Shown here: positions 45,488 to 62,259 of the stretch, one piece after another
How the letters are laid out: each line of letters starts with the position of its first letter
Position numbering within the stretch: the first letter of the stretch is position 1
Origin: Rhodothermia bacterium
GTDB lineage: Bacteria > Bacteroidota > Rhodothermia > Balneolales > Balneolaceae
Direction of reading: 5' to 3'
DNA: 64,000 bases
Assembly: GCA_030427885.1 (NCBI GenBank)
Contig: JAUICM010000003.1
Span: forward strand, 62,001-126,000
Notes under the pieces: generated by a model
What the model was told of the DNA's origin: nothing
The model's database searches: none
Seen by the model: the letters and a program-made list of their open reading frames with translations, nothing else
Position numbers and translations under genes: made by a program

Positions 45488-46753
45488 CTATTCCCTCTTG
45501 CCTATAGTTATAAAAGCTCTGCTGCCATCTAAGCCTACTGATGCAACTGTATTTCCTTTTATGGCTACATCGTACAGATTCCCCGTTATGTTTGTCTCAA
45601 ATTTGGTCCATCCGGCACCATTAAAGTGCAGTATTCTTCCAAATCCTCCAACTGTAATCAGGTCATTCAAGCCATTGGCATCGATGGCAAACAAATAGGG
45701 GTGTTCTATATTTTCTTTGTTCAGGTTTTTCCAGGGCAGGGAAGAATCTATCTTCGATTTCAAGGATATACGGTTACCTACCACATAGGTAATTCCCTGT
45801 TCATCAAACCAGATTCCGCTGATACTGGACGGAATAGGTTCTGAAGGCAATATTTCTACCGTTTGATCATCATTGACCCTCAGAATAAGTTTATCTGAAC
45901 TTTGGGATTGTTTTGCCGCCACCGCCACCGCCCCCTGCTGTTCATTCCCGTGGATGTCATAAAAATCCAGTTCCGTATTCGTTTCGATCTGTTGCCAGCT
46001 TTGGCCATTATAATGTGAGATAGTACTATTACTCCCAACTGCATAAACATTTGAATTATCCGTTCCCCAAAGTCTGTTTACAGAAGTAGGAATACATTCT
46101 ATTACTTTTTGTTCTGTACCATCATATCGAGTTACCTGTGAAAGAGAAGATGCCCAAATATCATTTTCAGAAAAACCGATGACAGAAGTTGCCCGATATG
46201 AACCCCTACCGGACTGATTACAGAAAGTATAAAATTGAAGTCTTATTAATTTCCAGTCTTCTCCGTCCCAATGAACCGCGTTATAAATTTTGCTATCCGC
46301 CTGCCCGGTAGAATCGTTCCTATGGATCTCTCCCACCGCCCAGATGTCATTCTCATCAATAACAGACACTCCATAAAGTATACTGGAGGAATGCTCCCCA
46401 AATGTGAATGTTTGCCAGGTGAAATTGCTGGAAGTGGTATCTAAGGTAGTGGATTGCCTTTCTATACTTCTTCCCCGTCCGTTGGAGTGGCTGGCTTTCC
46501 AGATGTAGGAAGTGGAAGGTTCAAGCCCTGTGTCGTATACCACCGTATCCGCGCGGTTCAGCCGAAAGGAGGATATCTCGTTCCCATCCCTCTCAATACG
46601 TATGACTGAACCTTCCGAAGCATGTATTTCTAAGGCCGCCTCTACCGCGGAAACTACTTTTACCTTAAAAAAATCAGTACTGTCATTGTCGAACAGGCCA
46701 CAGCCTGAAAAAAAGCAAAGTATACATAATGATATTGGCGAGAACACTCTCAT
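45488..46753 (-). CDS. Beta-propeller-like surface lipoprotein A
   Basis: The protein has 421 residues. The signal MRVFSPISLCILCFFSGC has a lipobox. A fibronectin III-like part (about 35-105, DTGLEPSTSYIWKAS) is followed by repeated blocks. Each block has a D-I/V-W/Y-A-V/S motif and a H-x-W/N-D/G-G motif (NDIWAVGEIHRND, AVHWDGEDWKLI, NVYAVGSNSTISHYNGQSW, RILHFNGAGWTKF). These look like blades of a propeller. No catalytic motif is recognised. It is downstream of and clearly related to the next lipoprotein gene, suggesting a duplicated pair. Confidence 0.75.
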   Translation of the reverse strand: MRVFSPISLCILCFFSGCGLFDNDSTDFFKVKVVSAVEAALEIHASEGSVIRIERDGNEISSFRLNRADTVVYDTGLEPSTSYIWKASHSNGRGRSIERQSTTLDTTSSNFTWQTFTFGEHSSSILYGVSVIDENDIWAVGEIHRNDSTGQADSKIYNAVHWDGEDWKLIRLQFYTFCNQSGRGSYRATSVIGFSENDIWASSLSQVTRYDGTEQKVIECIPTSVNRLWGTDNSNVYAVGSNSTISHYNGQSWQQIETNTELDFYDIHGNEQQGAVAVAAKQSQSSDKLILRVNDDQTVEILPSEPIPSSISGIWFDEQGITYVVGNRISLKSKIDSSLPWKNLNKENIEHPYLFAIDANGLNDLITVGGFGRILHFNGAGWTKFETNITGNLYDVAIKGNTVASVGLDGSRAFITIGKRE

Positions 46754-46862
46754 TGATCAGTTTGGTTATAAATAAGAAACATTAAACAATAAGATTATGA
46801 AAGGGAATAAAGCCTTCTTATTGCACGATCAAGGGCGCTGACCTTTGGGGCTATCCGTTACC

Positions 46863-46886
46863 GGGGCGGTGCTGCAACACCGCCCC
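46863..46886. terminator. GC-rich hairpin between the two propeller lipoprotein genes
   Basis: GGGGCGGTG and CACCGCCCC form a 9-bp stem around CTGCAA. A T-rich stretch follows only on the plus strand, opposite to the genes. It lies 20 nt past the stop of the upstream minus-strand gene, so it could still limit read-through, or be a dispersed palindrome. Confidence 0.45.
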
Positions 46887-46905
46887 TATTTTATTTTAGA
46901 AAGCA

Positions 46906-47937
46906 CTATTCCTCCTGTTCTTCTAAGGTTCCGTGGTAGATCAGGTTCGTTCCATTGTTAAAATCCCACACTAAAAAAAATGCTTCTTCACTAAATAATT
47001 GAGCACGGTATACATTAAGAGGTAAATCTTCCAATAATGAAACCGTATTCTCACCATTATTATGAAGCACCTGATTTCCAGTGAGAATCAGAAGGTCTTT
47101 TCTATGACGACCATAGACCCCGACAATGTCGTTTCTGGTAGAAAATGATAAAACCTCATCACCTTCATATGTAAGTATTGAATGTTCTGTAGTAATGTAA
47201 ACTTCATCTGAAACATCATTCAACCAGAAAGAAGATCCTTTTCCCATTGCATTTGGAAAAACAACTTCTAAAGTTTTGCTATTTAAACTGTAAATAATCA
47301 TTTCATCTACAGCAGAACCTTCTTCTATTTTTGTACCCAGTATCAAGGGTAGTTTATTATCTGCTCTTACCCGATGAAACTGAACCCCAAAATCAGTCGT
47401 TAGCACCTCTTTCCAGTCCTTGCCATCATAGTGCAAAACAAATCCCAGTGCCTTTGATTCATTTGACATAGAAAACGTGCCTACTGCATATACATCGGAA
47501 CCGGATCTCCCCCAGATGTCTGTTACTGACCCGGAATACATGCCTGGCTTATTAAACGTGTAATCCAATTTCCAGGAACCCCCATCAAAGTGATATATCC
47601 TCCCGTCGCTTCCTGCGGCCCATACGTCGGCCTCAGAAAATCCGAATACCGCTTCGAAAGAATAAATGTTCTGTGCAGGCTCCCAGCTTTCTCCATCAAA
47701 ATGCCACAGCGTATGAAGTCCACTGGAGGCTACGGCCCAAACATCTTCCGGTGAGGAACCCCAGATATCATATAACCAACCCGAGGGACCGTTGGCTACT
47801 GTATCCACTTGCCAGGTATAGTTTCTTGGCCCGGGCTCTAAGGGCTCATCATCATCCCCGCCCCCTAAGATATTGCAACTGGTAATACTAGCTACAAACA
47901 AAAGACAAGCAATAACAATTGTATTCAATTTGAACAT
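46906..47937 (-). CDS. Beta-propeller-like surface lipoprotein B
   Basis: The protein has 343 residues from the ATG at 47935-47937, which starts the lipoprotein signal MFKLNTIVIACLLFVASITSC (Cys21). A longer start at 47982 would add 15 residues before it. Repeated blocks such as LYDIWGSSPEDVWAVASSGL, LWHFDGESW, DVWAAGSDGRIYHFDGGSW and SDVYAVGTFSMS form propeller-like blades. Its blocks share the W-x-F/W-D/N-G-x-S/D-W pattern with lipoprotein A. Function is unknown; the repeats suggest a binding surface. Confidence 0.78.
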   Translation of the reverse strand: MFKLNTIVIACLLFVASITSCNILGGGDDDEPLEPGPRNYTWQVDTVANGPSGWLYDIWGSSPEDVWAVASSGLHTLWHFDGESWEPAQNIYSFEAVFGFSEADVWAAGSDGRIYHFDGGSWKLDYTFNKPGMYSGSVTDIWGRSGSDVYAVGTFSMSNESKALGFVLHYDGKDWKEVLTTDFGVQFHRVRADNKLPLILGTKIEEGSAVDEMIIYSLNSKTLEVVFPNAMGKGSSFWLNDVSDEVYITTEHSILTYEGDEVLSFSTRNDIVGVYGRHRKDLLILTGNQVLHNNGENTVSLLEDLPLNVYRAQLFSEEAFFLVWDFNNGTNLIYHGTLEEQEE

Positions 47938-48243
47938 TTCTCTCTCTTTAATCCAACACTGAAATAAGCTCAATGCTTTCATATTTATTAGTATCTATAA
48001 ATCGAGTGTAATCATTTCATTATTCACTACAAAATTAATACTAATCAAAACCTCTACAACCTTTTACCCATACAGAAATAGATCCTTCTCCACCATTCGG
48101 CGGTTCAGGATGACAGGGTTGGGGAGGCATCCCAAAGACTACTGTGTCGCCTAAGTCTTAATTAAGGGACACTGTCATACGAGCGAATGCGAGTAGAGAG
48201 AAGAATCTTCAATGTGATTCCACAGCTCTTCTGAGGAACCAGA
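47938..48243. other. Gene-free gap with dispersed-repeat fragments
   Basis: This gap shows no gene. It contains two pieces that look like decayed dispersed repeats: 48080-48116 (AGATCCTTCTCC ... TTCAGGATGACAG) and 48172-48224 (TGTCATACGAGCGAATGCGA ... GATTCCACAG). The similarity to known repeat families is from memory, so it is only suggestive. Confidence 0.5.
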
Positions 48244-49497: not shown

Positions 49498-52203
49498 TTA
49501 GCTCTTGCTCTTTTTGAGGTAGTCGAGCAATACAGTGTGGAGAATTCCACCGTTTCGGTAGTAATCTACTTCAACAGGTGTGTCGATCCTGCACTTCGTC
49601 ATGAATTCAACAACTGATCCATCAGATTTGGTTGCCGTAACTTTGATCTCTTCACGGGCTTTCACATTATCATCCACATGAATATCAAAGGTTTCTGATC
49701 CATCTAATCCAAGAGCATCTGCAGAATCTCCGTCTTTAAACTGAAGAGGAAGCACACCCATCTGTATCAGGTTTGAACGGTGAATTCGCTCATAAGAAAC
49801 AGCGATCACACATTTCACACCCAGAAGGTTGGTTCCTTTAGCAGCCCAATCACGGGAAGAACCCGTTCCGTACTGCTTACCGGCAAGTGCTACAAGCGGA
49901 GTTCCATTCTCTTTGTATTTCAGTGAGGCTTCAAAAATAGAAGTGATCTCACCAGTCGGATGATATTTGGTAAATCCACCTTCAGTACCCGGAGCCAACT
50001 GATTCTTGAAACGTACGTTCGCAAAAGTACCGCGGGTCATAACGCGGTCATTACCACGTCGCGAGCCATAAGAGTTGAAGTCTTTCTTTTCGACGCCATG
50101 TTCTTTCAGGTATACACCTGCCGGTGCATCTTCTTTGATATTACCTGCAGGAGAAATATGATCAGTGGTGATTGAATCTCCCACTTTAACCAGTGTTCTT
50201 GCACCTGTAATTGGTTTGATCTCTTTTGAATCTTCATCCATTCCCATAAAGAAAGGTGGTTCCTGGATGTACGTTGACTTTTCATCCCAGGCAAAAAGAT
50301 CACCGCCTGTTACCGGAATTTCTTCCCATGCCGGAGAGTCAAAAATATCGCTGTACATTTCTTCAAACAGATCCGGACGAATTGCATTATCCAGCTCCGC
50401 TGCGATCTCCTCTGTTGTTGGCCATATGTCTTTCAGATACACATCGTTGCCATCTTTGTCTTTACCTAGAGGCTCGCTTGCCAGGTCGATGTCAACAGTA
50501 CCGGCCAGTGCATATGCTACAACCAATGGAGGTGACGCAAGGAAATTCGCTTTCACCCATGGGTGTATACGTCCTTCGAAGTTTCTGTTACCTGAGAGAA
50601 CCCCCGCTGCGATCAAGTCGCCTTCACGGATTGCTTTCTCAACCGGTTCCGGAAGTGGTCCGGAGTTACCAATACATGTGGTACATCCATATCCAACCAG
50701 GTTGAATCCGAGTTTATCCATGTATTCAGTAAGACCAGCTTCTTTCAGATATTCGGTTACCACACGGGAGCCCGGTGCCAGTGATGTTTTCACATAAGCC
50801 GGAACAGTAAGTCCTTTTTCTACGGCTTTCTTCGCAACAATACCTGCTCCCAGCATTACGCTTGGGTTTGAAGTGTTGGTACAAGAGGTGATCGCTGCGA
50901 TAACCACATCACCATGCTTCATCTCAATTTCCTGGCCATTTTTGTACAATCCTTTGTTAGCCAGTTTTTCCTTAGCCAGGTTGAAGCCCATCGTAGGATT
51001 ATCACTAACCAGCGATTCCTCGAATGTCTTCTTCATATTTCTCAAGACAATGCGGTCGTGCGGAAGTTTTGGGCCTGCCAATGAGGTCTCAACCGTACTC
51101 AGATCAAGTTGTAGTGTTGATGTAAATTCAGGGTCAACCGTATCGTCGGTTCTGAATAAGCCCTGAGCTTTAGTGTAATTCTCAACAAGCTGTACTAATT
51201 CCTCTGAGCGACCGGTTCTTCTCATATAACGTAGTGATTCCGCGTCGATCGGGAAAAATCCCATGGTTGCTCCGTATTCAGGAGCCATGTTTGCAATGGT
51301 GGCACGATCTGGCAGACTCATATTGCTGATACCATCACCATAAAATTCCACGAACTTACCAACCACACCGTGCTTTCTGAGCATTTGGGTTACAGTAAGT
51401 GTCAGATCGGTAGCTGTTACTCCTTCCTGAAGTGCGCCGGTTAGTTTCATACCAACTACTTCAGGTACCAACATCGAAATAGGCTGACCAAGCATTGCTG
51501 CTTCCGCCTCAATTCCACCAACACCCCAGCCAAGAATACCAAGTCCGTTGATCATAGTAGTATGCGAATCGGTTCCTACCAGAGTATCTGGATATGCGGT
51601 AACAGAACCGTCTTCTTCTTCACGGGTAAATACACCCCGTGCCAGATATTCAAGGTTCACCTGGTGAACGATTCCGCGGCCCGGAGGTACTACCCGGAAA
51701 TTATCAAATGCTTCTTTACCCCATTTCAGGAATTCGTAGCGCTCATTATTACGCTCCATTTCTTTCTCAACGTTGAAAAACAGCGCGGCATCGCTTCCGA
51801 ACATATCTACCTGAACAGAGTGGTCGATTACCAGATCAACAGGAACCTGTGGGTTGATGGCATTAGGATCACCTCCCATACGTTTCATTGCTGACCTCAG
51901 TGCGGCCAGATCAACTACAGCTGGTACACCGGTAAAATCCTGAAGAACCACACGTGAAGGCTTGAATGGGATCTCGCCCTGCGGATCCTTCGCATCATAG
52001 TTTGCCAGCGCTTCAATATCCTGCTTTGTTACCAGGTAGTCATCATACTCACGCAGTACTGCTTCCAATAATATCTTTATGGAGAAAGGAAGTTTTTCAA
52101 TGTTATCGTAACCGAGTCCCTTTAACTTGTCCAGGCTGTATAGATTGGCTTTGCCTGATCCCGTTTCAAATTCGACTCGTGTTTGTTTAAAATTCTCGCT
52201 CAT
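49498..52203 (-). CDS. acnA: Aconitate hydratase, AcnA/IRP type
   Basis: The protein has 901 residues, the usual length for the AcnA group. It has the substrate/cluster motifs [20 protein letters not shown] and [31 protein letters not shown] supplies the paired [4Fe-4S] cysteines. The swivel domain contains [16 protein letters not shown]. It interconverts citrate and isocitrate in the TCA cycle. It stands as a single gene with its own terminator. Confidence 0.97.
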
Positions 52204-52322: not shown

Positions 52323-53231
52323 CTATTCATAAACACTGACTTCGGGAGTTCCCGGAAAAATATCAGCTCTTTTAATGTTTCTGGGCGGGCAGGCTACCGG
52401 AACATTATTTGAATCATAGCAGGGCAGTAATGAAATTGATCTCGCTGCAACCCCTGCCACTACTCCCAATCCATTTGACACATTGCGTTGTACATCTAAT
52501 AAGGCTGCTGCTTCATCGCTCTCTGCTAGCTCGGGCCAGCTTTCGTTGCCCGAAACTATGATCATATAAGCATCATTTACTGAAACCCGGACAGCAGCAT
52601 TTCCAAGCGCATCTGAGACTTTCCCATTATCATTTAGTACGATCCTGAAATTACCGTTTTGATCTATTGTTACCATATTCTCATCTATTTCTGTGATCCT
52701 TACTAACCTTAAACCACTGGCTGTATTCATCATATACACCCGTTCAAGTATCACGAATTTCTCTACTCCTGATCCTGTTACAAGACTGGAAAAACGGGTT
52801 CCATCAAAATGTTGAGAAACAGGTAACGGAAATTCCTTTGGGATCTTTACCGTTGCATGACTTGACTCTCCACCTGAATTCGTAGCTGTCAGCGTATACT
52901 CTTCCCCTCCATGAAGGCTATCCTCTGAAAGGTAATTCCAGTAATATACTTGCTTCCCATCTACAAACCGGGTGAATTTGTAGCCTGGCAGATCTGAAAC
53001 CACTCCCGTACTCTCTCTTTTTAAAGTAACTCTGGTATCACTCGAATCCCCAAAACTGATTACTGTCTCCCTTACAGGAGAGACTCTTATCCATTGGTAA
53101 CCAGAATACAGATCCAGATATCCATACATCGAAAAAACGTAATCACTCTCCTGTAGTGGCTCGAATGTATATTCGCAGTTCATTCCGGAAACAATTAGAA
53201 TTGGCAGTATCAGAATACGCAGCCTTTTCAT
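52323..53231 (-). CDS. DUF4249-type lipoprotein, array copy 1 (most distal)
   Basis: The protein has 302 residues. The lipoprotein signal ends LIVSGMNC, and the family start EYTFEPLQESDY follows the Cys directly. The N-terminal part has SMYGYLDLYSGYQWIRVSPV and a beta-rich middle. The C-terminal block is NDAYMIIVSGNESWPEL, NGLGVVAGVAARSISLLPCY and VPVACPPRN, with two Cys spaced by nine residues. DUF4249 proteins are usually single genes behind a TonB receptor and are thought to act as its surface partners; the ligand is unknown. Its ATG overlaps the previous stop by 4 nt. Confidence 0.88.
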   Translation of the reverse strand: MKRLRILILPILIVSGMNCEYTFEPLQESDYVFSMYGYLDLYSGYQWIRVSPVRETVISFGDSSDTRVTLKRESTGVVSDLPGYKFTRFVDGKQVYYWNYLSEDSLHGGEEYTLTATNSGGESSHATVKIPKEFPLPVSQHFDGTRFSSLVTGSGVEKFVILERVYMMNTASGLRLVRITEIDENMVTIDQNGNFRIVLNDNGKVSDALGNAAVRVSVNDAYMIIVSGNESWPELAESDEAAALLDVQRNVSNGLGVVAGVAARSISLLPCYDSNNVPVACPPRNIKRADIFPGTPEVSVYE

Positions 53232-54145
53232 TGTTCACCTTTCCCCATCATCATATCTGAAGGTTTTATTTTTCTGGGCGGGCAGGCTACCGGAACATGA
53301 TTGGAATCATAGCAGGGCTCCAGGGAAATTTTATAGGCAGCCACACCTGCAACCACGCCTAATCCATCCTGCACATTTCGTTGAGCATCGGGAAGTGCAT
53401 TTTCTTCGCTTCCGGTTCCTGCTGACTCCGGCCAGCTTTCGTTGCCCGTAGCGATAATCATGTAGGCGTCACGAAGACTCGCTTGTCCTATTCCGGTTCC
53501 GAAATAATCATTGATGTAAGCTCGATCATTAAAAGAAATATTAAAACTCCCTTGTTCATCAGTAACAACCTTATCCAACTGAGATACCTTAATTCTTATC
53601 GTATCAGGATCACCAAAACCAGCAAAAAAAAGAAAAGTGTAGGTTATTTCTGCCACCACCATCTTAATGACTTCCGTTCCTGTTACCACCCCCTCGTAAG
53701 ACCTTTCATTGAAGCTTTCTGATACTGGAACCGGATATGATTCGGGAATTCTAACATCAGCCCGACTCGATAACCCGTTATTACCTTCCACCGTTAAAAT
53801 ATATTCCTCTTGCTGAAAGACAGAGTCCCTTGAAACATAATTCCAGAAGTTGACAGTATCCTGACCATCTTCAAAAAAGGTAAATAAGTGCCCTGATAAC
53901 TTGGACCGTACACCAGTACTCTCTCTTTTAAGTGTTACTGAAAGATCCAGTGAGTCAGTGCTTGAACCATAAGAGAGCGTTTCCCGAACAGGAGTAACTC
54001 TAAACCAGTGCTCATTGGAATACAGATCTAGATATCCATAGATAGAATAGTTGTAATCGCTCTCCTGCAACGGCTCGAATGCTGTTTCACATCCCAGACC
54101 CGAAACAATAGCTACAGATAATATCAGAACACGTAATTTTTTCAT
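53228..54145 (-). CDS. DUF4249-type lipoprotein, array copy 2
   Basis: The protein has 305 residues. The signal ends VSGLGC, followed by ETAFEPLQESDYNYSIYGYL. Residues about 28-115 and about 222-300 are nearly identical to copy 3, also at nucleotide level. The stretch between them (about 116-220, with TYTFLFFAGFGDPDTIRIKV) is clearly different. The C-terminal CYDSNHVPVAC pair is present. The 4-nt overlap with copy 3 indicates coupled translation. This pattern points to recent duplication with change or replacement of the central part. Confidence 0.9.
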   Translation of the reverse strand: MKKLRVLILSVAIVSGLGCETAFEPLQESDYNYSIYGYLDLYSNEHWFRVTPVRETLSYGSSTDSLDLSVTLKRESTGVRSKLSGHLFTFFEDGQDTVNFWNYVSRDSVFQQEEYILTVEGNNGLSSRADVRIPESYPVPVSESFNERSYEGVVTGTEVIKMVVAEITYTFLFFAGFGDPDTIRIKVSQLDKVVTDEQGSFNISFNDRAYINDYFGTGIGQASLRDAYMIIATGNESWPESAGTGSEENALPDAQRNVQDGLGVVAGVAAYKISLEPCYDSNHVPVACPPRKIKPSDMMMGKGEQ

Positions 54146-55044
54146 TGTCCTCCCGCTATAACCAGATCGGAAGGTTTTATTTTTCTGGGCGGGCAGGCTA
54201 CCGGAACATGATTGGAATCATAGCAGGGCTCCAATGATATTTTATAGGCAGCCACACCCGCAACCACGCCTAATCCATCCTGCACATTTCGTTGAGCATC
54301 GGGAAGTGCATTTTCTTCGCTTCCGGTTCCTGCTGACTCCGGCCAGCTTTCGTTGCCCGAAGCGATAATCATGTAGGCGTCACGGTATGCTAGTCCCTGA
54401 ACTGTGATCGCTCCGTATTTTTCCAGAAGGGCCGGCCAGTCATTAAATGCGATCCTGAAATTTCCATTCTCATCTACTGAAATATCTTCAAGATGGGATC
54501 TCTTAAAAATTACTTCTACTGGACCATGTTCAAATATATAAGTGATCTCAGCCACCACATATTTATCAATTCCTGTCCCGGCAACCATTCCGGTCAGTCT
54601 GCCTGAGTTGAATTCTTGAGAGATCGGTATCGGGTAAGCCGGAGGAATCGCTGCTGTAGCATGGCTTGTTTTACCGCCTTCTCCAGTTACTGTAATAGTG
54701 TATTCCTCTTGCTCAAAGACAGAATCCCTTGCAACATAATTCCAGAAATTGACCGTATCCTGACCATCCTCAAAAAAGGTAAATAAATGCCCTGATAACT
54801 TAGAACGTACACCGGTGCTCTCTCTTTTGAGGGTTACCGAGAGATCCAAAGAATCGGTACTCGAGCCATAAGAGATCGTTTCCCGAACTGGTGTGACTCT
54901 GAACCAATGCTCATTGGAATTCAGATCCAGATACCCATAAATGGAGTAATTATAATCGCTCTCTTGAATAGGTTCGAAAGTTTGCTCGCAGCTCAGTCCG
55001 GACAGAAAGATCAATACCAATATCGGAAGTCCCGGTTTCTTCAT
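54142..55044 (-). CDS. DUF4249-type lipoprotein, array copy 3
   Basis: The protein has 300 residues. The signal ends FLSGLSC, then EQTFEPIQESDYNYSIYGYL. It shares NEHWFRVTPVRET and LSGHLFTFFEDGQDTVNFWN with copy 2, and shares its C-terminal third. The centre (EITYIFEHGPVEVIFKRSHL, WPALLEKYGAITVQGL) is its own. It probably sits on the outer membrane as part of the receptor system. It overlaps copies 2 and 4 by 4 nt each. Confidence 0.9.
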   Translation of the reverse strand: MKKPGLPILVLIFLSGLSCEQTFEPIQESDYNYSIYGYLDLNSNEHWFRVTPVRETISYGSSTDSLDLSVTLKRESTGVRSKLSGHLFTFFEDGQDTVNFWNYVARDSVFEQEEYTITVTGEGGKTSHATAAIPPAYPIPISQEFNSGRLTGMVAGTGIDKYVVAEITYIFEHGPVEVIFKRSHLEDISVDENGNFRIAFNDWPALLEKYGAITVQGLAYRDAYMIIASGNESWPESAGTGSEENALPDAQRNVQDGLGVVAGVAAYKISLEPCYDSNHVPVACPPRKIKPSDLVIAGGQ

Positions 55045-55952
55045 TGTTCAGAATACTTTAAAAGTTTATTCCGATCTGATCTTGAATCAGAAATTGGACA
55101 TTCTGAACCATCAGGGAGAGTACAAGTATCTACTCGCATTGTATAAGTTGCCAAACCGGTAACTACCCCAAGACCATCCTCAACATTATTTTGTGTATCC
55201 GGGATCGCGTTTTCTTCTGAACCAGTACCATACGATTCAGGCCAGCTACCATTGTCTACTGCAATAGTGAAAATAACCTGACTAATACCAAATTCATCCA
55301 AGCCCCATCTTGGAAATTCTTTATCTAAATTAGTAGCATCATCAATGAAAACGCTAAAGTTCCCATCTTCATCAACCTGAACATTACCTTCTCTGAGCTT
55401 AGACGTTTTATAGTAAACACAACAAAGTCCATTTACCGTTAACGAATATTCCAGAGTTGCGAGTACAATTCTGTTTTTTACCGAGCCCTGTATTAATCCA
55501 GTGAAACTGTCATTATCATAATCAGAAACAACTGGTTTAGGAAAGGTATCCGGCATTCTCACTGTCGCATAACTAGATTGCCCGTCTTCTCCTGTTACTC
55601 TGATCGTGTACTCTTCATTGGCATTAAGGGAGTCCATCAGAACATAATTCCAGAAATTGGCGGTGTCCTGACCATCTTCATAAAAAGTGAATAATTGAGC
55701 AGAAAGCCTGAACTGTTCCCCAGTTGTTTCTCTGGTAAGTGTAACATCCACCCCAAGTGAATCCCAATTCGCCCCTGCTATTATCTTCTGACGAATAGGA
55801 TTTACTCTGAACCACTGCTCATTGGAGTGAAGGTCCAGGTATCCGTTTATTGAAAAATTGTAGTCACCCTCCTGAAAGGGCTGGAAATTCTGTTCACAGC
55901 TGATATTAAATCCCACCACTAAAATGACCAAATATAACATTACTCTCTTCAT
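55041..55952 (-). CDS. DUF4249-type lipoprotein, array copy 4
   Basis: The protein has 303 residues. The signal ends LVVGFNISC, then EQNFQPFQEGDYNFSINGYL. It keeps the shared SNEQWFRVNPIR and FYEDGQDTANFWNYV blocks. Its tail differs from the others: the Cys pair is only seven residues apart (CTLPDGSEC) and the CPPR motif is absent. The central part has an extra Cys pair (NGLCCVYY). It overlaps its neighbours by 4 nt on both sides. Confidence 0.88.
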   Translation of the reverse strand: MKRVMLYLVILVVGFNISCEQNFQPFQEGDYNFSINGYLDLHSNEQWFRVNPIRQKIIAGANWDSLGVDVTLTRETTGEQFRLSAQLFTFYEDGQDTANFWNYVLMDSLNANEEYTIRVTGEDGQSSYATVRMPDTFPKPVVSDYDNDSFTGLIQGSVKNRIVLATLEYSLTVNGLCCVYYKTSKLREGNVQVDEDGNFSVFIDDATNLDKEFPRWGLDEFGISQVIFTIAVDNGSWPESYGTGSEENAIPDTQNNVEDGLGVVTGLATYTMRVDTCTLPDGSECPISDSRSDRNKLLKYSEQ

Positions 55953-56887
55953 TGACCTGCTATTTTAGAGTTCACATTTTTCGGCGGACAGGGCACCAGC
56001 TCATCATTGGCATTACGGCAACTTTTAAATGGCATGGTAAGGCTGGCTACCCCAAGTACCAGGCCCGTACCGTTTTCCACATTATTTGCTAACTCAGGTA
56101 ATGCCGCTTCCTCGCTCGACAACCCTTTTATATAAGGCCAGTCATCTCCACCTACTCCAATAAATATATTGGCACTATCTACAAAGACATCACCTGACGA
56201 TACCAGGTACTGATCTGCTATAAATTTCCGGTCTCCGATGTTAACCCTGTATTCTCCGTTATCCTGAATAAATACCTTTTCCCTTTCGATCTGCGAAACT
56301 TCGACCCTTTTTTTGAGTTCATTCCCAAACTTATCTATGATCGTACAGAAATATTCCACATCCAGAACCACTAACCTGTTATCTACCTGACCTTCCAGCA
56401 CCCCGCTAAAGGTATTCTCATTGTAGCCAAATACGGGAGGCTCAAAAATGGGGGGCACGTAGGTTGTCACCGTACTTTTCTCGCCGTCCGACCGCTCAGC
56501 GATCAGGGTATATTCCTCATCAAATTCAATAGGAAAATCAGTCTTGAAATTTCGCACATAAAACGGGTCATCCGGACCTGAATAGAATACAAAAAGTGAA
56601 TCCTTCAATTCGGATTCTTCTCCTGTACTGTTTTTGATCAAAGTAACTTTTGCATCAATAGGAACATCACTGAGGGCAAGACTCTCCCGAACCGGCATTA
56701 CTCTGATCCATTGTACCTCCTGAGAGGTATTCAGGAAACCATACATGGAATAATGAAATCTGTTATTCTCCTGCAGCGGCTCAAATGCCGTTTCACAACC
56801 CAAAAACCCCAACATCATGATTAGGAGTAACACAGCAATCCCGGAATGTATATAAAATACCTTCTCATTGGTTTTGACTGTGTTCAT
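55949..56887 (-). CDS. DUF4249-type lipoprotein, array copy 5
   Basis: The protein has 312 residues with a long n-region; the lipobox ends MMLGFLGC, then ETAFEPLQENNRFHYSMYGF. It pairs with copy 6: both have a SMYG-LNTSQ-QWIRV block, the SQIERE segment and a GTGLVLGV tail. The Cys pair is CRNANDELVPC. The gap to copy 6 is 16 nt or, if copy 6 ends as called, a normal operon junction. Confidence 0.88.
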   Translation of the reverse strand: MNTVKTNEKVFYIHSGIAVLLLIMMLGFLGCETAFEPLQENNRFHYSMYGFLNTSQEVQWIRVMPVRESLALSDVPIDAKVTLIKNSTGEESELKDSLFVFYSGPDDPFYVRNFKTDFPIEFDEEYTLIAERSDGEKSTVTTYVPPIFEPPVFGYNENTFSGVLEGQVDNRLVVLDVEYFCTIIDKFGNELKKRVEVSQIEREKVFIQDNGEYRVNIGDRKFIADQYLVSSGDVFVDSANIFIGVGGDDWPYIKGLSSEEAALPELANNVENGTGLVLGVASLTMPFKSCRNANDELVPCPPKNVNSKIAGQ

Positions 56888-56903
56888 AATAATTTCGGAT
56901 TTA

Positions 56904-57851
56904 TTACTTCTCTAAAGACAATTTCACTTTTCGATTCGAATTTTTTGGAGTACAGGGTATGAGCATGTTGTTTGAATCATAACAGGCTTCGAAGGGAAGG
57001 GTTATGCTGGACACACCCAATACTAATCCTGTGCCATTCATAACATTGGTTGCTGATTGTGGTAATGCAGACTCTTCAGATGACTGGCTATTGAACTCAG
57101 GCCAGTCATCTCCTGATATGGCGATAAAGATCTCGGCGCTGTCAAGAGTTACGGCCGACTGACTTACCCCAAATTCCCCGGCAATATAATTCCGGTCGCT
57201 TACTGTGATCTTATAATCCCCGTTTTCCTGAACTACAAGCCGCTCTCTTTCTATCTGTGATACTCTGAGCTTTCCTCTCAATGGAATTCCTTCTTCGTCG
57301 ATCACTACATAATAATAGTCTACATCTGCCACTACGATCTGACCCTGAATATTGCCCTGTATGATACCCCCAAGAGTATTGGAATTAAAACTGAAGGTTG
57401 GGGCATCGATCCGGGAAGGGATCCGGGTAGTAGCCGAGCTTACCATTCCGTCCGACCTTTCAGCACGTATTGTATATTCTTCCCCGAATTCGATGGGAAA
57501 ATCAGTATAAAAATTATGCACACTCACGATATCACCTACCCTTGCATAAAAATCAAAAAGGGAATCCTGCAACTCTACGGTTTGTCCAGTACTGTTTTTT
57601 GTCAGGGTCACACGCACATCAATTTCATCATCATCTAAAAACAATGTTTCTCTGATCGGAGTTACCCGGATCCATTGAATATCCTGAGAAGTATTCAGTA
57701 CTCCGTACATAGAATAGAAAAACTGGTCGTTTTCCTGAAGAGGTTCAAAATTATAATCACAGCTGCCAAGTACCAGTGCAATAAGACCAAGTACAACCAG
57801 CAATGGCTGTCTCATTACACTCCTTTTATGTGGCATATCCTGAGATCTCAT
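56904..57851 (-). CDS. DUF4249-type lipoprotein, array copy 6
   Basis: The protein has 315 residues from the ATG at 57849-57851, four bases after the copy 7 stop. This gives a 31-residue signal ending LIALVLGSC, the same length as in copy 5. A later ATG at 57815, preceded by AGGAG, is also possible. A start at 57932 would overlap copy 7 by 77 nt and is unlikely. The mature part begins DYNFEPLQENDQFFYSMYGV and ends with the pair CYDSNNMLIPC. It is most similar to copy 5. Confidence 0.87.
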   Translation of the reverse strand: MRSQDMPHKRSVMRQPLLVVLGLIALVLGSCDYNFEPLQENDQFFYSMYGVLNTSQDIQWIRVTPIRETLFLDDDEIDVRVTLTKNSTGQTVELQDSLFDFYARVGDIVSVHNFYTDFPIEFGEEYTIRAERSDGMVSSATTRIPSRIDAPTFSFNSNTLGGIIQGNIQGQIVVADVDYYYVVIDEEGIPLRGKLRVSQIERERLVVQENGDYKITVSDRNYIAGEFGVSQSAVTLDSAEIFIAISGDDWPEFNSQSSEESALPQSATNVMNGTGLVLGVSSITLPFEACYDSNNMLIPCTPKNSNRKVKLSLEK

Positions 57852-57855
57852 GATG

Positions 57856-58794
57856 CTAGTCTCCATACCTTTGTTCATCCCAATTGATGGCCGGCAGAGT
57901 TGGGCATGCCACCAGATCATTATTGCTATCATAACAGCTTTCCAGTGGCACCCGTTTACTTACCACTCCGGACACTGTTCCCAAACCTCCCTCAACATTA
58001 TAAAAGTCTTCTGATAGCACGTACAGGTCATCGTCAATATCCAGATTCCGGGGCCATGAATCATTCCCTGAAATAATCAGTATCTCAGAATATAGTATAG
58101 TAATTCCTTCTACAGACACTCCTAATTGCTCCGCAAAATAAGGCATATCATTTACCCTGAACGTGAAATCCCCGGAACGATATCTCTCAACCGATTCCAC
58201 TTCAAACTGGTTTACAGTGAGCGGAGGGGACGTTTGTGGTCTTCCGTTTGCATCAATATATCTGAGGATATAAGTTGCTTCAGCTACTACTAATTGTTCA
58301 ATTCCGGATACCTGCACATAAGCTATTTTGGTTTCAGGGCGGAAATCTACTACCGGGGTGGGGAAATCAGCTGGTATAGAAAAAGTAGCTGACGCAAAAG
58401 CTCCACTGTCATTCGAGGCACTCAGAGTGTATTCTACCCCACCAACCAGACTATCTTTTGTCCAGAAATTATTAGCATATGTCACATCATTTATACTGGG
58501 GTGGTATGCAAATACTGAATCCTTCATATTAATTGTTGAGCTTCCTGAACTTAATAACACGGTAGCATTGCTCTTTTTTGCTGCAAAGGTGAGTGAATCC
58601 CTGATCGGCATTACCCTCACCCATTGGGTATCTGCACTCAGATCCACCACTCCATTTATCGAAAAAGCGTAGGCGTCATTTTCTGCAAGTGGATCAAATG
58701 GTGATTCACAGGCAGACCAGATCAAGCCCATTAAAACTATACAGAAGACCAGGCTTCTGAATAAAAAAGCAGTTCTTTTAGCAGTACTTCTCAT
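57856..58794 (-). CDS. DUF4249-type lipoprotein, array copy 7 (next to the receptor)
   Basis: The protein has 312 residues. The signal ends CIVLMGLIWSAC, then ESPFDPLAENDAYAFSINGV. It is the most divergent copy, but keeps DTQWVRVMPIRDSLTF, GNDSWPRNL, GGLGTVSGVVSKRVPLESCY and DLVACP. As the first gene after the receptor, with a 4-nt overlap of stop and start, it may be the ancestral partner from which the distal copies arose (inference). Confidence 0.87.
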   Translation of the reverse strand: MRSTAKRTAFLFRSLVFCIVLMGLIWSACESPFDPLAENDAYAFSINGVVDLSADTQWVRVMPIRDSLTFAAKKSNATVLLSSGSSTINMKDSVFAYHPSINDVTYANNFWTKDSLVGGVEYTLSASNDSGAFASATFSIPADFPTPVVDFRPETKIAYVQVSGIEQLVVAEATYILRYIDANGRPQTSPPLTVNQFEVESVERYRSGDFTFRVNDMPYFAEQLGVSVEGITILYSEILIISGNDSWPRNLDIDDDLYVLSEDFYNVEGGLGTVSGVVSKRVPLESCYDSNNDLVACPTLPAINWDEQRYGD

Positions 58795-61097
58795 CGCTTG
58801 GTCTCAACTTTAATGGACGCATATGGAAAGAACGGTAGTTGATCGATACGACGCTGTGTATACACATCATAATAGAAGATATTGCGCTGATCGTAGGTAT
58901 TTATAGCACCTACCTGGAGCTTCATCCACAGAGTTTGCAGATCAATGCTTTTCTCCACAGATACATTCAAACGATGAAACTCGGGCATTCTTCCTGTAAA
59001 TGGCTTGTCTAGAATAACTCTTGGTGTTCCATATTCTGTAGTTACATCAGGCAGGCTGTCTTCGAAACGAATCAGATCATCAAAGCCGAGAGGTCTTGTA
59101 TAAGGCAGACCTGTACCAAAATCCCAACTCAGGTTGATCTTGAATTTCTCAAAATCAAGACCAGCCTGCACATTGACCTGATGGCGACGATCATGTGGTG
59201 GATTATATTTCTGAATAGGCTCACCAAACCAGGTACTGAACAGATCCTGAGCCGTAGTGTATTCCGTGATGGCGTACCCATATCCTACAGAACTGTAAAA
59301 CACCCTTCCATCATAATTCAGTTTAACATCCACTCCCTGGGTTTCTCCATCAGCCAGTGAAACATTAGTATTGAACTGTGCGATCGTACTCCAGGTTGAT
59401 ACCGGAAGATCCTCCGTCCATTTCATATATCCTTCAATTGAGTAATCGATCAGGTCTCCTAGCGGTTGTCTCCATCCGATCATGGCATGGGTTGAGGTCA
59501 TCTGCTCACCGTCGTAAGGCGCCGTTGACCAAACCGTAAAAGCAGAACCTGCATCTCTGAAATCAGTAATGCCGGTTAGTGGCTGTCGATAGATCCCCCA
59601 GGCTGCGCTCAGCTCTTCATTCTTCTTTCCTCTTGGCTGAAATGAAACCTGCGCCCTTGGCTCCAGACTTACTCCGTACCTGAACAGATACCATGAAGCA
59701 GCAACCCCGGGTTTAAGCTGGATCTTTTCGCCAATTGGTATAATAGTTTGCAGATATGCACCTGACCCAAGCAATACTCTTTTCTCAATATTCAAGTCAA
59801 TGAAATAGTCGTTGATCTCGTGATCTAACCAGCGAATGTTTGTATAAAAACCATACTCAAGACGAAGTTTGTTTACCACCTGCACCATATTCACCTGAGT
59901 ATTGAAAACGGTAGCACTTGAACGACGCTCAGGATCGTTTGGATCTCCTACCTCGTTCGAAATATGTGAAACTGATAAGTTGATATCGAAGAATGAAACC
60001 GAACCCTGCTGACCCAGAGCCGCACATTTGCCACCTAACACGAAATTATTCCATCGATATACATCCCCTTCTTCATAATCTAGCTGACCTTCGTCTTTAG
60101 TCCTCATAAATAAAGCAGAACAGGTAGAACCTGCGGCGCTGATCGCTTTGTTATATTTTATCAGCTGACTGTTGAAATTCATTGGCTGATTGTTGCCATA
60201 TAGATTACTCGCCTGATCGATAAATGAATTTCTTGCAGAAACGATAAGGGCAGTCTCTCCTTTCTTGATCGGACTTTCAAAATAGATCTGTCCGATAAAA
60301 GGACTCACAGAAGCAGACCAGTGTCTTTCGTACAAATCCCCATTTCTAAGTTTCACATCCAGAACAGATGAGGTTCTGCCACTATACTTAGGCCCGAAGC
60401 CACCCGCATAGAAATCAGCCTCTGTTACCACTTCTTCCGGAAACACGGAGAAGAATCCGATAATATGAAAGGGTTGATACACCAGGGCTCCGTCAATAAG
60501 AGTCAGGTTTTCGGAAGGCGTACCTCCGCGAATGAAGAGATTACCCCCTCTGTCGCCTGTTGCCACAACACCCGGAAGTGTTTGGATATACGTTGCAAGG
60601 TCACCGCTACCTGCCGGGGTCGGTGCTCTTCTGATATCGATACGATCAATTTTTTGCTGTCCCACATCAACATCTGCTTCTCTGCCACGTTGAGTTACCA
60701 CAATATCCCCAAGCTGATTTTTACCGGGTTCCAGCTCAATACTCAGCGTAATAACATCAGTGGTCCAGTCAACTACAATAGTATCCTGGTACATTTCATA
60801 CCCTATATATGTGGCTTTTACTATATAAGTGCCTTCATCTACATTATTGAAAACGAACAGTCCATTCCCATCAGTTGAGGTTCCTGCATACATTTCCTCA
60901 TCTGTAGTCTGCAGTACGATGTTTGCAGATACGAGAGGAGTGGCATTATTCGCATCTGATATGATTCCCCTTACGGATTGTGAGAACGCGTTGCTCACAC
61001 TAAACAGGGAAAACAATAGTAGAATACCCCAGAAAGAATTTATTTTGACGACCAAACTGTTGGATCCTTTTGAGATCCGGAAAGAACTGTAGCTCAT
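58791..61097 (-). CDS. TonB-dependent receptor heading the DUF4249 array
   Basis: The protein has 768 residues from the ATG at 61095-61097, which has AAAGG 6 nt upstream. A GTG at 61160 would add 21 residues before the signal peptide. After the signal (WGILLLFSLFSVSNAFSQ) come a carboxypeptidase-like domain (VRGIISDANNATPLVSANIV) and a plug domain (GDLATYIQTLPGVVATGDRG, FIRGGTPSENLTLIDGALVY). The 22-strand barrel follows. At under 800 residues it is shorter than SusC proteins, and the partner genes are DUF4249 rather than SusD. It would move an unknown ligand across the outer membrane. Confidence 0.93.
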   Translation of the reverse strand: MSYSSFRISKGSNSLVVKINSFWGILLLFSLFSVSNAFSQSVRGIISDANNATPLVSANIVLQTTDEEMYAGTSTDGNGLFVFNNVDEGTYIVKATYIGYEMYQDTIVVDWTTDVITLSIELEPGKNQLGDIVVTQRGREADVDVGQQKIDRIDIRRAPTPAGSGDLATYIQTLPGVVATGDRGGNLFIRGGTPSENLTLIDGALVYQPFHIIGFFSVFPEEVVTEADFYAGGFGPKYSGRTSSVLDVKLRNGDLYERHWSASVSPFIGQIYFESPIKKGETALIVSARNSFIDQASNLYGNNQPMNFNSQLIKYNKAISAAGSTCSALFMRTKDEGQLDYEEGDVYRWNNFVLGGKCAALGQQGSVSFFDINLSVSHISNEVGDPNDPERRSSATVFNTQVNMVQVVNKLRLEYGFYTNIRWLDHEINDYFIDLNIEKRVLLGSGAYLQTIIPIGEKIQLKPGVAASWYLFRYGVSLEPRAQVSFQPRGKKNEELSAAWGIYRQPLTGITDFRDAGSAFTVWSTAPYDGEQMTSTHAMIGWRQPLGDLIDYSIEGYMKWTEDLPVSTWSTIAQFNTNVSLADGETQGVDVKLNYDGRVFYSSVGYGYAITEYTTAQDLFSTWFGEPIQKYNPPHDRRHQVNVQAGLDFEKFKINLSWDFGTGLPYTRPLGFDDLIRFEDSLPDVTTEYGTPRVILDKPFTGRMPEFHRLNVSVEKSIDLQTLWMKLQVGAINTYDQRNIFYYDVYTQRRIDQLPFFPYASIKVETKR

Positions 61098-61410
61098 TAG
61101 TAACCTTTTATTTTGTAGCAGCCGGAATCTTTTCAGAAATAATGTTCCTGACGATAGCACGATGATGTGATATCCATGCGATGATACAAAATCTCCTCAG
61201 TTTAAACATCAGGTGAACGTACCAGTTTGTAAAATCAGGAGCTGAATGGTGACTTTTCCGGCTTGAAACTGCTCATATCTAAGACACTTTCAGGAAAACT
61301 TATTCATTCTGTATAATTTTTTGAAATTTTAGTGTTTCAATTATTGATATGAAAGATATTTTGCCGTACTTTTAGTGTCTTTCCAAAAAAGCAAACCAAC
61401 GAGTTTTATC
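61098..61410. promoter_or_regulatory. Divergent control region of the TonB-DUF4249 operon and the rplM operon
   Basis: This 313-nt gap must hold the promoters for the receptor array (minus) and for rplM-rpsI (plus). It is AT-rich near the rplM side. I found no clear operator palindrome, riboswitch or consensus promoter. Confidence 0.5.
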
Positions 61411-61854
61411 GTGAATACTTTAAGTTTTAAAACATACTCAGCTAAACCCAGCGACATCGAGAAGAATTGGGTTTTGATCGATGCTGAAGATCAGCCATTG
61501 GGCAGATTGAGTACTGTTGTAGCATCTATTTTGAGAGGCAAGAATAAGCCCACATTTACTCCGCACATGGATACCGGAGATAATGTAATTGTTATCAATG
61601 CAGAAAAAGTAAAACTAACCGGTAAGAAAATGACGGACAAAATGTACTTCCGTCACACTTTCTATCCAGGTGGTGAGCGTTTTACCAGTGCACAGGATAT
61701 GTTGGCAAAAGACCCTACCTCTTTAGTAACAAAAGCTGTTAAAGGAATGCTGCCTAAGAACAGATTAGGCCGCAAGTTACTGACCAATCTGCGTGTTTAC
61801 GCTGGTCCTGTACACGAGCAAACAGCTCAGAAACCAGAAATCATCGAGCTTTAA
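61411..61854 (+). CDS. rplM: 50S ribosomal protein L13
   Basis: The protein has 147 residues from the GTG at 61411, which gives the usual L13 start [20 protein letters not shown]. An upstream GTG at 61375 would add 12 atypical residues. [20 protein letters not shown] and the [16 protein letters not shown] segment are diagnostic. It is followed after 18 nt by rpsI, the universal L13-S9 pair. Confidence 0.96.
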
Positions 61855-61872
61855 TCGATTACAGACTGAATA

Positions 61873-62259
61873 ATGGCACAAGCTAATTACATCGGAAGAA
61901 GAAAGACCTCAACTGCTCGTTTGTATATCAAGCCGGGTAAAGGCGAGTTCATCGTTAACAAAGAATCTATTGAAGAATACCTTCCTGTAAAGGCTCTTCG
62001 TAACATCGCATTGCTCCCAATGCACGTTACTGAGACCGAAGGTAAATACGATATCAAAGTTACCGTACGCGGTGGCGGAAAAGCAGGACAATCTGGTGCT
62101 ATTCAGCACGCTCTTGCCCGCGCTATCGACGGCGAGAACGAAGAATTGCATACAATTCTTAAAGAGCACGGTCTTCTTACACGTGATGACAGAATGGTTG
62201 AACGTAAAAAACCAGGTCAGCCAAAAGCACGTAAGAAATTCCAGTTCTCTAAGCGTTAA
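61873..62259 (+). CDS. rpsI: 30S ribosomal protein S9
   Basis: The protein has 128 residues. It starts YIGRRKTSTARLYIKPGKGE and contains VRGGGKAGQSGAIQHALARA. It ends with the expected basic tail KARKKFQFSKR, which reaches the ribosomal P site. It pairs with rplM. Confidence 0.98.
   Translation: MAQANYIGRRKTSTARLYIKPGKGEFIVNKESIEEYLPVKALRNIALLPMHVTETEGKYDIKVTVRGGGKAGQSGAIQHALARAIDGENEELHTILKEHGLLTRDDRMVERKKPGQPKARKKFQFSKR

Follow-up and report, generated by a model that had tools for sequence, protein, structure and literature searches.

Why a single TonB-dependent receptor should be followed by seven candidate lid genes is the question raised by a locus in the window, i.e., the whole stretch of 64,000 nucleotides analysed here, which comes from a Balneolaceae bacterium. 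Surface lipoprotein lids pass small ligands to TonB-dependent barrels in systems such as BtuBG and XusAB (PMC10404256, PMC13142918). In the window, one receptor gene has seven lipoprotein genes (L1-L7) downstream of it on the minus strand, at positions 52323-58794 (Table 1). The row of seven genes described in the first-pass annotation was confirmed: all seven open reading frames are present, intact and co-directional, and each opens with a signal of the lipoprotein type that ends in Cys. The gaps from each start to the preceding stop, from L1 to L7, are -4, +4, +16, -4, -4, -4 and -4 nt, which confirms the earlier count of 4-nt overlaps at five of the seven starts, the exceptions being the L1/L2 and L2/L3 junctions. 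The longest open reading frame of L2 extends to 57932, and the ATG at 57851 lies just past the L1 stop. Elsewhere in the window (45488-47982), two adjacent predicted lipoproteins carry repeated motifs of the IWAVG/VWAVA kind and have no Pfam hit.

Table 1. Receptor gene, candidate lid genes, gene-conversion tracts and flanking anchors, in window positions.
Feature	Position	Strand	Remarks
rplM + rpsI (divergent), syntenic anchor outside the system	61375..62259	+	From translations; same neighbours in L047 and L049
TonB-dependent receptor, N-terminal CarboxypepD_reg-like domain + plug	58791..61160	-	Pfam, AlphaFold, fold search
L1, receptor-proximal candidate lid gene	57856..58794	-	Start overlaps receptor stop by 4 nt
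L2, candidate lid gene	56904..57851	-	PF14054 4.8e-8; sister of L3
L3, candidate lid gene	55949..56887	-	50% amino acid identity to L2
L4, candidate lid gene	55041..55952	-	PF14054 sub-threshold, 4.7e-4; groups with L5-L7
L5, candidate lid gene	54142..55044	-	71% amino acid identity to L6
Gene-conversion tract, L5 copy	54149..54384	-	Partner of the L6 tract
L6, candidate lid gene	53228..54145	-	Predicted structure, two tandem beta-sandwich domains
Gene-conversion tract, L6 copy	53238..53473	-	236 nt, 94% identical to the L5 copy (repeat D3)
L7, candidate lid gene, last of the array	52323..53231	-	PF14054 sub-threshold, 0.0063
Aconitase, syntenic anchor outside the system	49498..52203	-	Pfam Aconitase 7e-169; same neighbour in L047

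For the receptor, Pfam reports the CarbopepD_reg_2 (1.3e-12) and Plug (1.4e-5, above the cut-off) domains, and in the fold search of the AlphaFold model (pLDDT 85) the best 50 PDB matches are all TonB-dependent receptors, with BtuB at the top; a sequence search of the PDB found no relative. Both the plug domain and the beta-barrel that characterize such receptors are thus found in the product, by Pfam and by the model. The span given earlier for the gene, 58791-61097, stands as the open reading frame from an internal ATG at 61097, while the longest frame reaches a GTG start at 61160. In a search of the whole genome, which is 98.7% complete, a single receptor of this subfamily was recovered, at 1066 bits. 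The runner-up, at 354 bits, is placed on contig C13, where the genome's canonical DUF4249 gene lies directly behind it (G000:C13:287673-290849), and the remaining receptor-like matches score at most 154 bits and belong to other families.

The seven lipoproteins are diverged, with pairwise identities of 24-71%; most pairs lie at 24-53%, with synonymous sites near saturation. Their alignment nevertheless has a mean column identity of 50% and 34 invariant columns, and a profile built from it matches the genome at the seven genes of the array and nowhere else, from which it follows that the seven are homologous and that the likeness is not due to chance. The shared motifs listed in the first-pass annotation were also recovered: the Cys-E/D-x-x-F-E/D/Q-P start is present in all seven, and in the early block W, R and V are invariant, as is the first cysteine of the tail. 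In a wider alignment of 90 lipoproteins, the lipobox cysteine occurs in every row, followed by D/E at +2 in 75, F at +5 in 51 and D/E at +6 in 49. With an acidic residue at +2, F at +5 and an acidic residue or Q at +6, the stretch after the cysteine is similar to SDDFE, the export signal of F. johnsoniae, which may not be the signal used in Balneolaceae.

The assignment of these proteins to DUF4249 depends on the method of comparison. In the direct search with PF14054, only L2 passes the Pfam cut-off (33.3 against 28.5 bits), two further copies fall below it and four have no match. The earlier label "DUF4249-type" is thus supported only in part by the direct search and depends on intermediates: of the 90 rows in the wider alignment, 69 have a PF14054 match at E <= 0.01, and the comparison of the 90-sequence profile with canonical DUF4249 by hhalign gives a probability of 97.2% (E 3.2e-11), restricted to domain 1. 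The same comparison with L1-L7 alone is weak (13.8%). An adjoining TonB-dependent receptor, which is a trait of DUF4249 genes, is present here, and the same pairing is seen in nearly all relatives. The iterated lid profile, searched against the genome, missed the canonical DUF4249 gene on C13, which indicates that the subfamily is distinct. The most suitable description of L1-L7 is a diverged subfamily related to DUF4249, to which relatives and profile comparison connect it.

The copy number was surveyed in clusters anchored on receptor similarity, of which the 30 closest complete ones, including the window, were compared. One lid is found in 23 of them, two lids in two, three lid frames in two and none in one. 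About seven are found only in the window and in the metagenome-assembled genome (MAG) UBA2664, whose eight frames correspond to seven genes, one of them broken in two. The cluster without a lid (L074) has one just over 1 kb away, past an inverted broken lid, and L089, counted among those with three, holds one full-length frame and two short pieces. In the wider survey, 53 of 73 clusters have one lid. At the corresponding locus of G018, one receptor and one lid stand between aconitase and rplM/rpsI, and G017 has a single-lid receptor next to rplM/rpsI. Four lids are found in L046 and, seen as family hits, in G192. The expectation that DUF4249 genes occur once or twice per receptor is therefore borne out, and arrays of seven are rare rather than routine, though not unique. 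The array represents a genuine and rare expansion, specific to this lineage, of a two-gene unit that was already known.

Several further arrangements were observed among these genomes. In Fodinibius salsisoli (L074:8904-9777), a second lid, broken into two frames, lies inverted between lid and receptor, and the split may be due to decay or to a sequencing error; the break in the array lid of UBA2664 (L045:7490-8445) may likewise be a frameshift error of the MAG. UBA2664 also carries an extra lid of the family outside its array (G073:C38:144958-145824), with no close subfamily receptor nearby. In ten loci of the Rhodothermota type (L114-L119, L121, L125, L130 and L141), two receptor-lid pairs are arranged in tandem, with one lid for each receptor.

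The history of the array can be read from the lid tree and from the synonymous sites. In the tree, L2-L7 form one group (SH-aLRT 90) and L1 branches apart, all seven being placed inside a supported set that also includes, among others, the single lids of L047 and L049. Most adjacent copies of the window array are mutual closest kin, which is the pattern expected from tandem duplication. The lids of the UBA2664 array fall on other parts of the tree, where they form two groups interspersed with lids from other genomes; such a placement indicates that the two arrays arose separately and that the one in UBA2664 is partly older. Between L5 and L6, dS is 0.13 in the C-terminal part and 1.33 in the N-terminal part (Fisher p 6e-8), which, together with the 94% identical tract shared by the two genes, points to recent gene conversion. 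In their N-terminal domain, dN is only 0.04 at the same dS of 1.33, and the resulting dN/dS of about 0.03 speaks for purifying selection, i.e., for copies that are not decaying. A phase-variable switch was considered and rejected, as the inverted repeats at the array are only weak and the Bacteroidota promoter pattern TTTG-N-TANNTTTG was not matched there.

The AlphaFold model of L6 (pLDDT 89.6, from 90 sequences) consists of beta-sandwich domains at about residues 32-132 and 133-233, followed by the Cys-containing tail. A search of the PDB with this fold gave weak, mostly Ig-like matches with TM-scores below 0.3, and a viral library gave nothing useful, so that no function can be assigned by fold. 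A sequence search of the PDB also found no relative of the lid. No solved structure is thus closely related to the two predicted beta-sandwich domains. Pfam gives no SusD match, and the mostly beta, two-domain model differs from the helical TPR fold of SusD. BtuG lids have a beta-propeller fold, and no such propeller is present in the L6 model or among the PDB matches shown.

The two predicted domains differ in conservation. In the window copies, domain 2 is the least conserved part (0.26 against 0.43 for domain 1), and the relatives, most of which have a single lid, give nearly the same values (0.20 against 0.42). Such variability therefore characterizes the family as a whole and does not prove that the lids diversified to take new ligands. 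Close copies within the UBA2664 array have a higher dN in domain 2 at similar dS; dN is still lower than dS, and positive selection is not seen. The variability is compatible with a ligand-facing domain, without demonstrating diversifying selection. A reading of domain 2 as a hypervariable cassette was rejected, since dS does not differ significantly between the N-terminal and middle parts of L5 and L6 (p 0.08), and it is also undercut by the equal variability in single-lid relatives.

The best fit to these observations is the first of the proposals made from the window alone, a panel of alternative partners for one porter; nothing in the present analysis speaks for the second, a hetero-oligomeric cap. 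One TonB-dependent porter would be served by seven alternative surface lipoprotein lids encoded in its operon, a reading with a probability of about 0.5. The receptor and the seven genes would be co-transcribed, and the lipoproteins exported, lipidated and flipped onto the cell surface, where any one of them at a time may close the receptor barrel, working like the pedal-bin lids of SusCD, BtuBG and XusAB. Docking on the shared receptor would fall to the conserved first beta-sandwich together with the C-terminal tail, and contact with the ligand, as well as discrimination between ligands, would be the task of the variable second beta-sandwich. In this lineage a single ancestral lid was probably duplicated in tandem, with gene conversion acting locally, and the resulting set may let one porter import a broader range of related small ligands.

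Several lines of evidence argue for this reading. A joint action of the DUF4249 protein BT2173 and the transporter BT2172 has been proposed (Price et al. 2023, cited in PMC11003636), and transporters of this kind almost always adjoin a DUF4249 gene. This proposal, together with the solved lids for small ligands, offers the precedent. The genome has one receptor of the subfamily, and the next receptor has a DUF4249 gene of its own. A syntenic relative has a single lid, as do most of the closest clusters, so the number of copies points to an expansion in the window. The seven copies are intact and diverged, with purifying selection on the first domain of L5 and L6, the variability of domain 2 would suit a ligand-facing part, and the SDDFE-like residues after the cysteine may point to the surface. 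What counts against it is that domain 2 varies as much in single-lid relatives, that positive selection is not seen in the UBA2664 pairs, and that seven lids competing for one receptor would need regulation or some benefit. A fuller version, in which the porter swaps its seven paralogous lids, domain 2 sets the choice of ligand, the substrate repertoire is modular and such panels arose more than once in Balneolota, is offered tentatively, at somewhat worse than even odds.

The tree and the layout of the operon also allow a different division of roles, in which the lid is a single copy (probably L1) and the remaining ones, as accessory proteins that capture ligand at the surface or as subunits of a larger cap, deliver it to the porter. 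Such a role, likened to that of the extra surface lipoproteins of glycan utilisomes, is unlikely, although less so than the other alternatives. L1 keeps the ancestral position, with the 4-nt overlap also seen at the single-lid locus L049, and it branches apart from L2-L7; surface lipoproteins other than the lid are known around SusCD (PMC7618045). All seven copies, however, have the same conserved framework. To our knowledge, the known accessory surface proteins belong to families other than that of the lid.

The array could also be a by-product of recombination: unequal crossing-over would have produced the tandem copies, and dosage or mere chance would have retained them, with no division of labour. 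This reading is judged rather improbable. That adjacent copies are closest relatives, that gene conversion has occurred and that a broken copy in UBA2664 suggests that copies can be lost would all agree with such an origin. Dosage would favour similar copies, yet L1-L7 are so divergent that simple dosage is spoken against, and all seven genes are intact, with the first domain of L5 and L6 under constraint. A role of the lipoproteins in varying the exposed surface around the porter, as a protection from phages or bacteriocins, is quite improbable: TonB-dependent receptors are common receptors of both, and the variable domain is plausibly exposed, judging from the L6 model and the conservation, but no switching device is visible at the array, where the inverted repeats are weak. 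Least probable by a little is that some of L1-L7 serve lid-less TonB-dependent receptors elsewhere: in its favour, the genome has many further receptor-like matches of other families, but none of them belongs to the subfamily, the nearest has its own DUF4249 neighbour, and in nearly all relatives lids of this family adjoin receptors of the subfamily.

The reading of one porter with a panel of lids can finally be set beside what is known. The earlier judgement that this is the least described system in the window applies to the array, as a single paper among the open-licence PubMed Central papers searched mentions DUF4249 and no description of such an array was found in them (subscription journals or preprints may hold one); it does not apply to the receptor-DUF4249 unit, which had already been proposed. 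The closest known kind is BT2172/BT2173, where a TonB-dependent transporter likewise stands beside a DUF4249-related lipoprotein with a proposed joint action. In that case, one partner is found per receptor, whereas the window has seven diverged ones, of which only domain 1 can be aligned with canonical DUF4249. The array of UBA2664 (L045/L090) is alike in having about seven lids, one of them broken, beside one receptor of the same subfamily; its lids lie upstream of the receptor and on other branches of the tree, and the window array has a separate origin. In other Bacteroidota, tandem lids beside one receptor are also present in L046 and L053, and as family hits only in G192:C9, in two to four copies compared with seven in the window. 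With SusCD, BtuBG and XusAB, the last two of which import small molecules, the window shares the lipoprotein lid on a TonB-dependent barrel. Their lids belong to other families, and the folds of SusD and BtuG differ from the one predicted for L6. The array is a possible functional handle on the uncharacterised DUF4249 family, and the single-lid relatives, one of them syntenic, together with the parallel case in UBA2664, would make it a system for testing whether lids determine substrate range and whether they can be swapped. In the solved complexes each transporter barrel has one kind of lid, and the locus described here would be a natural set of one barrel and seven lids.
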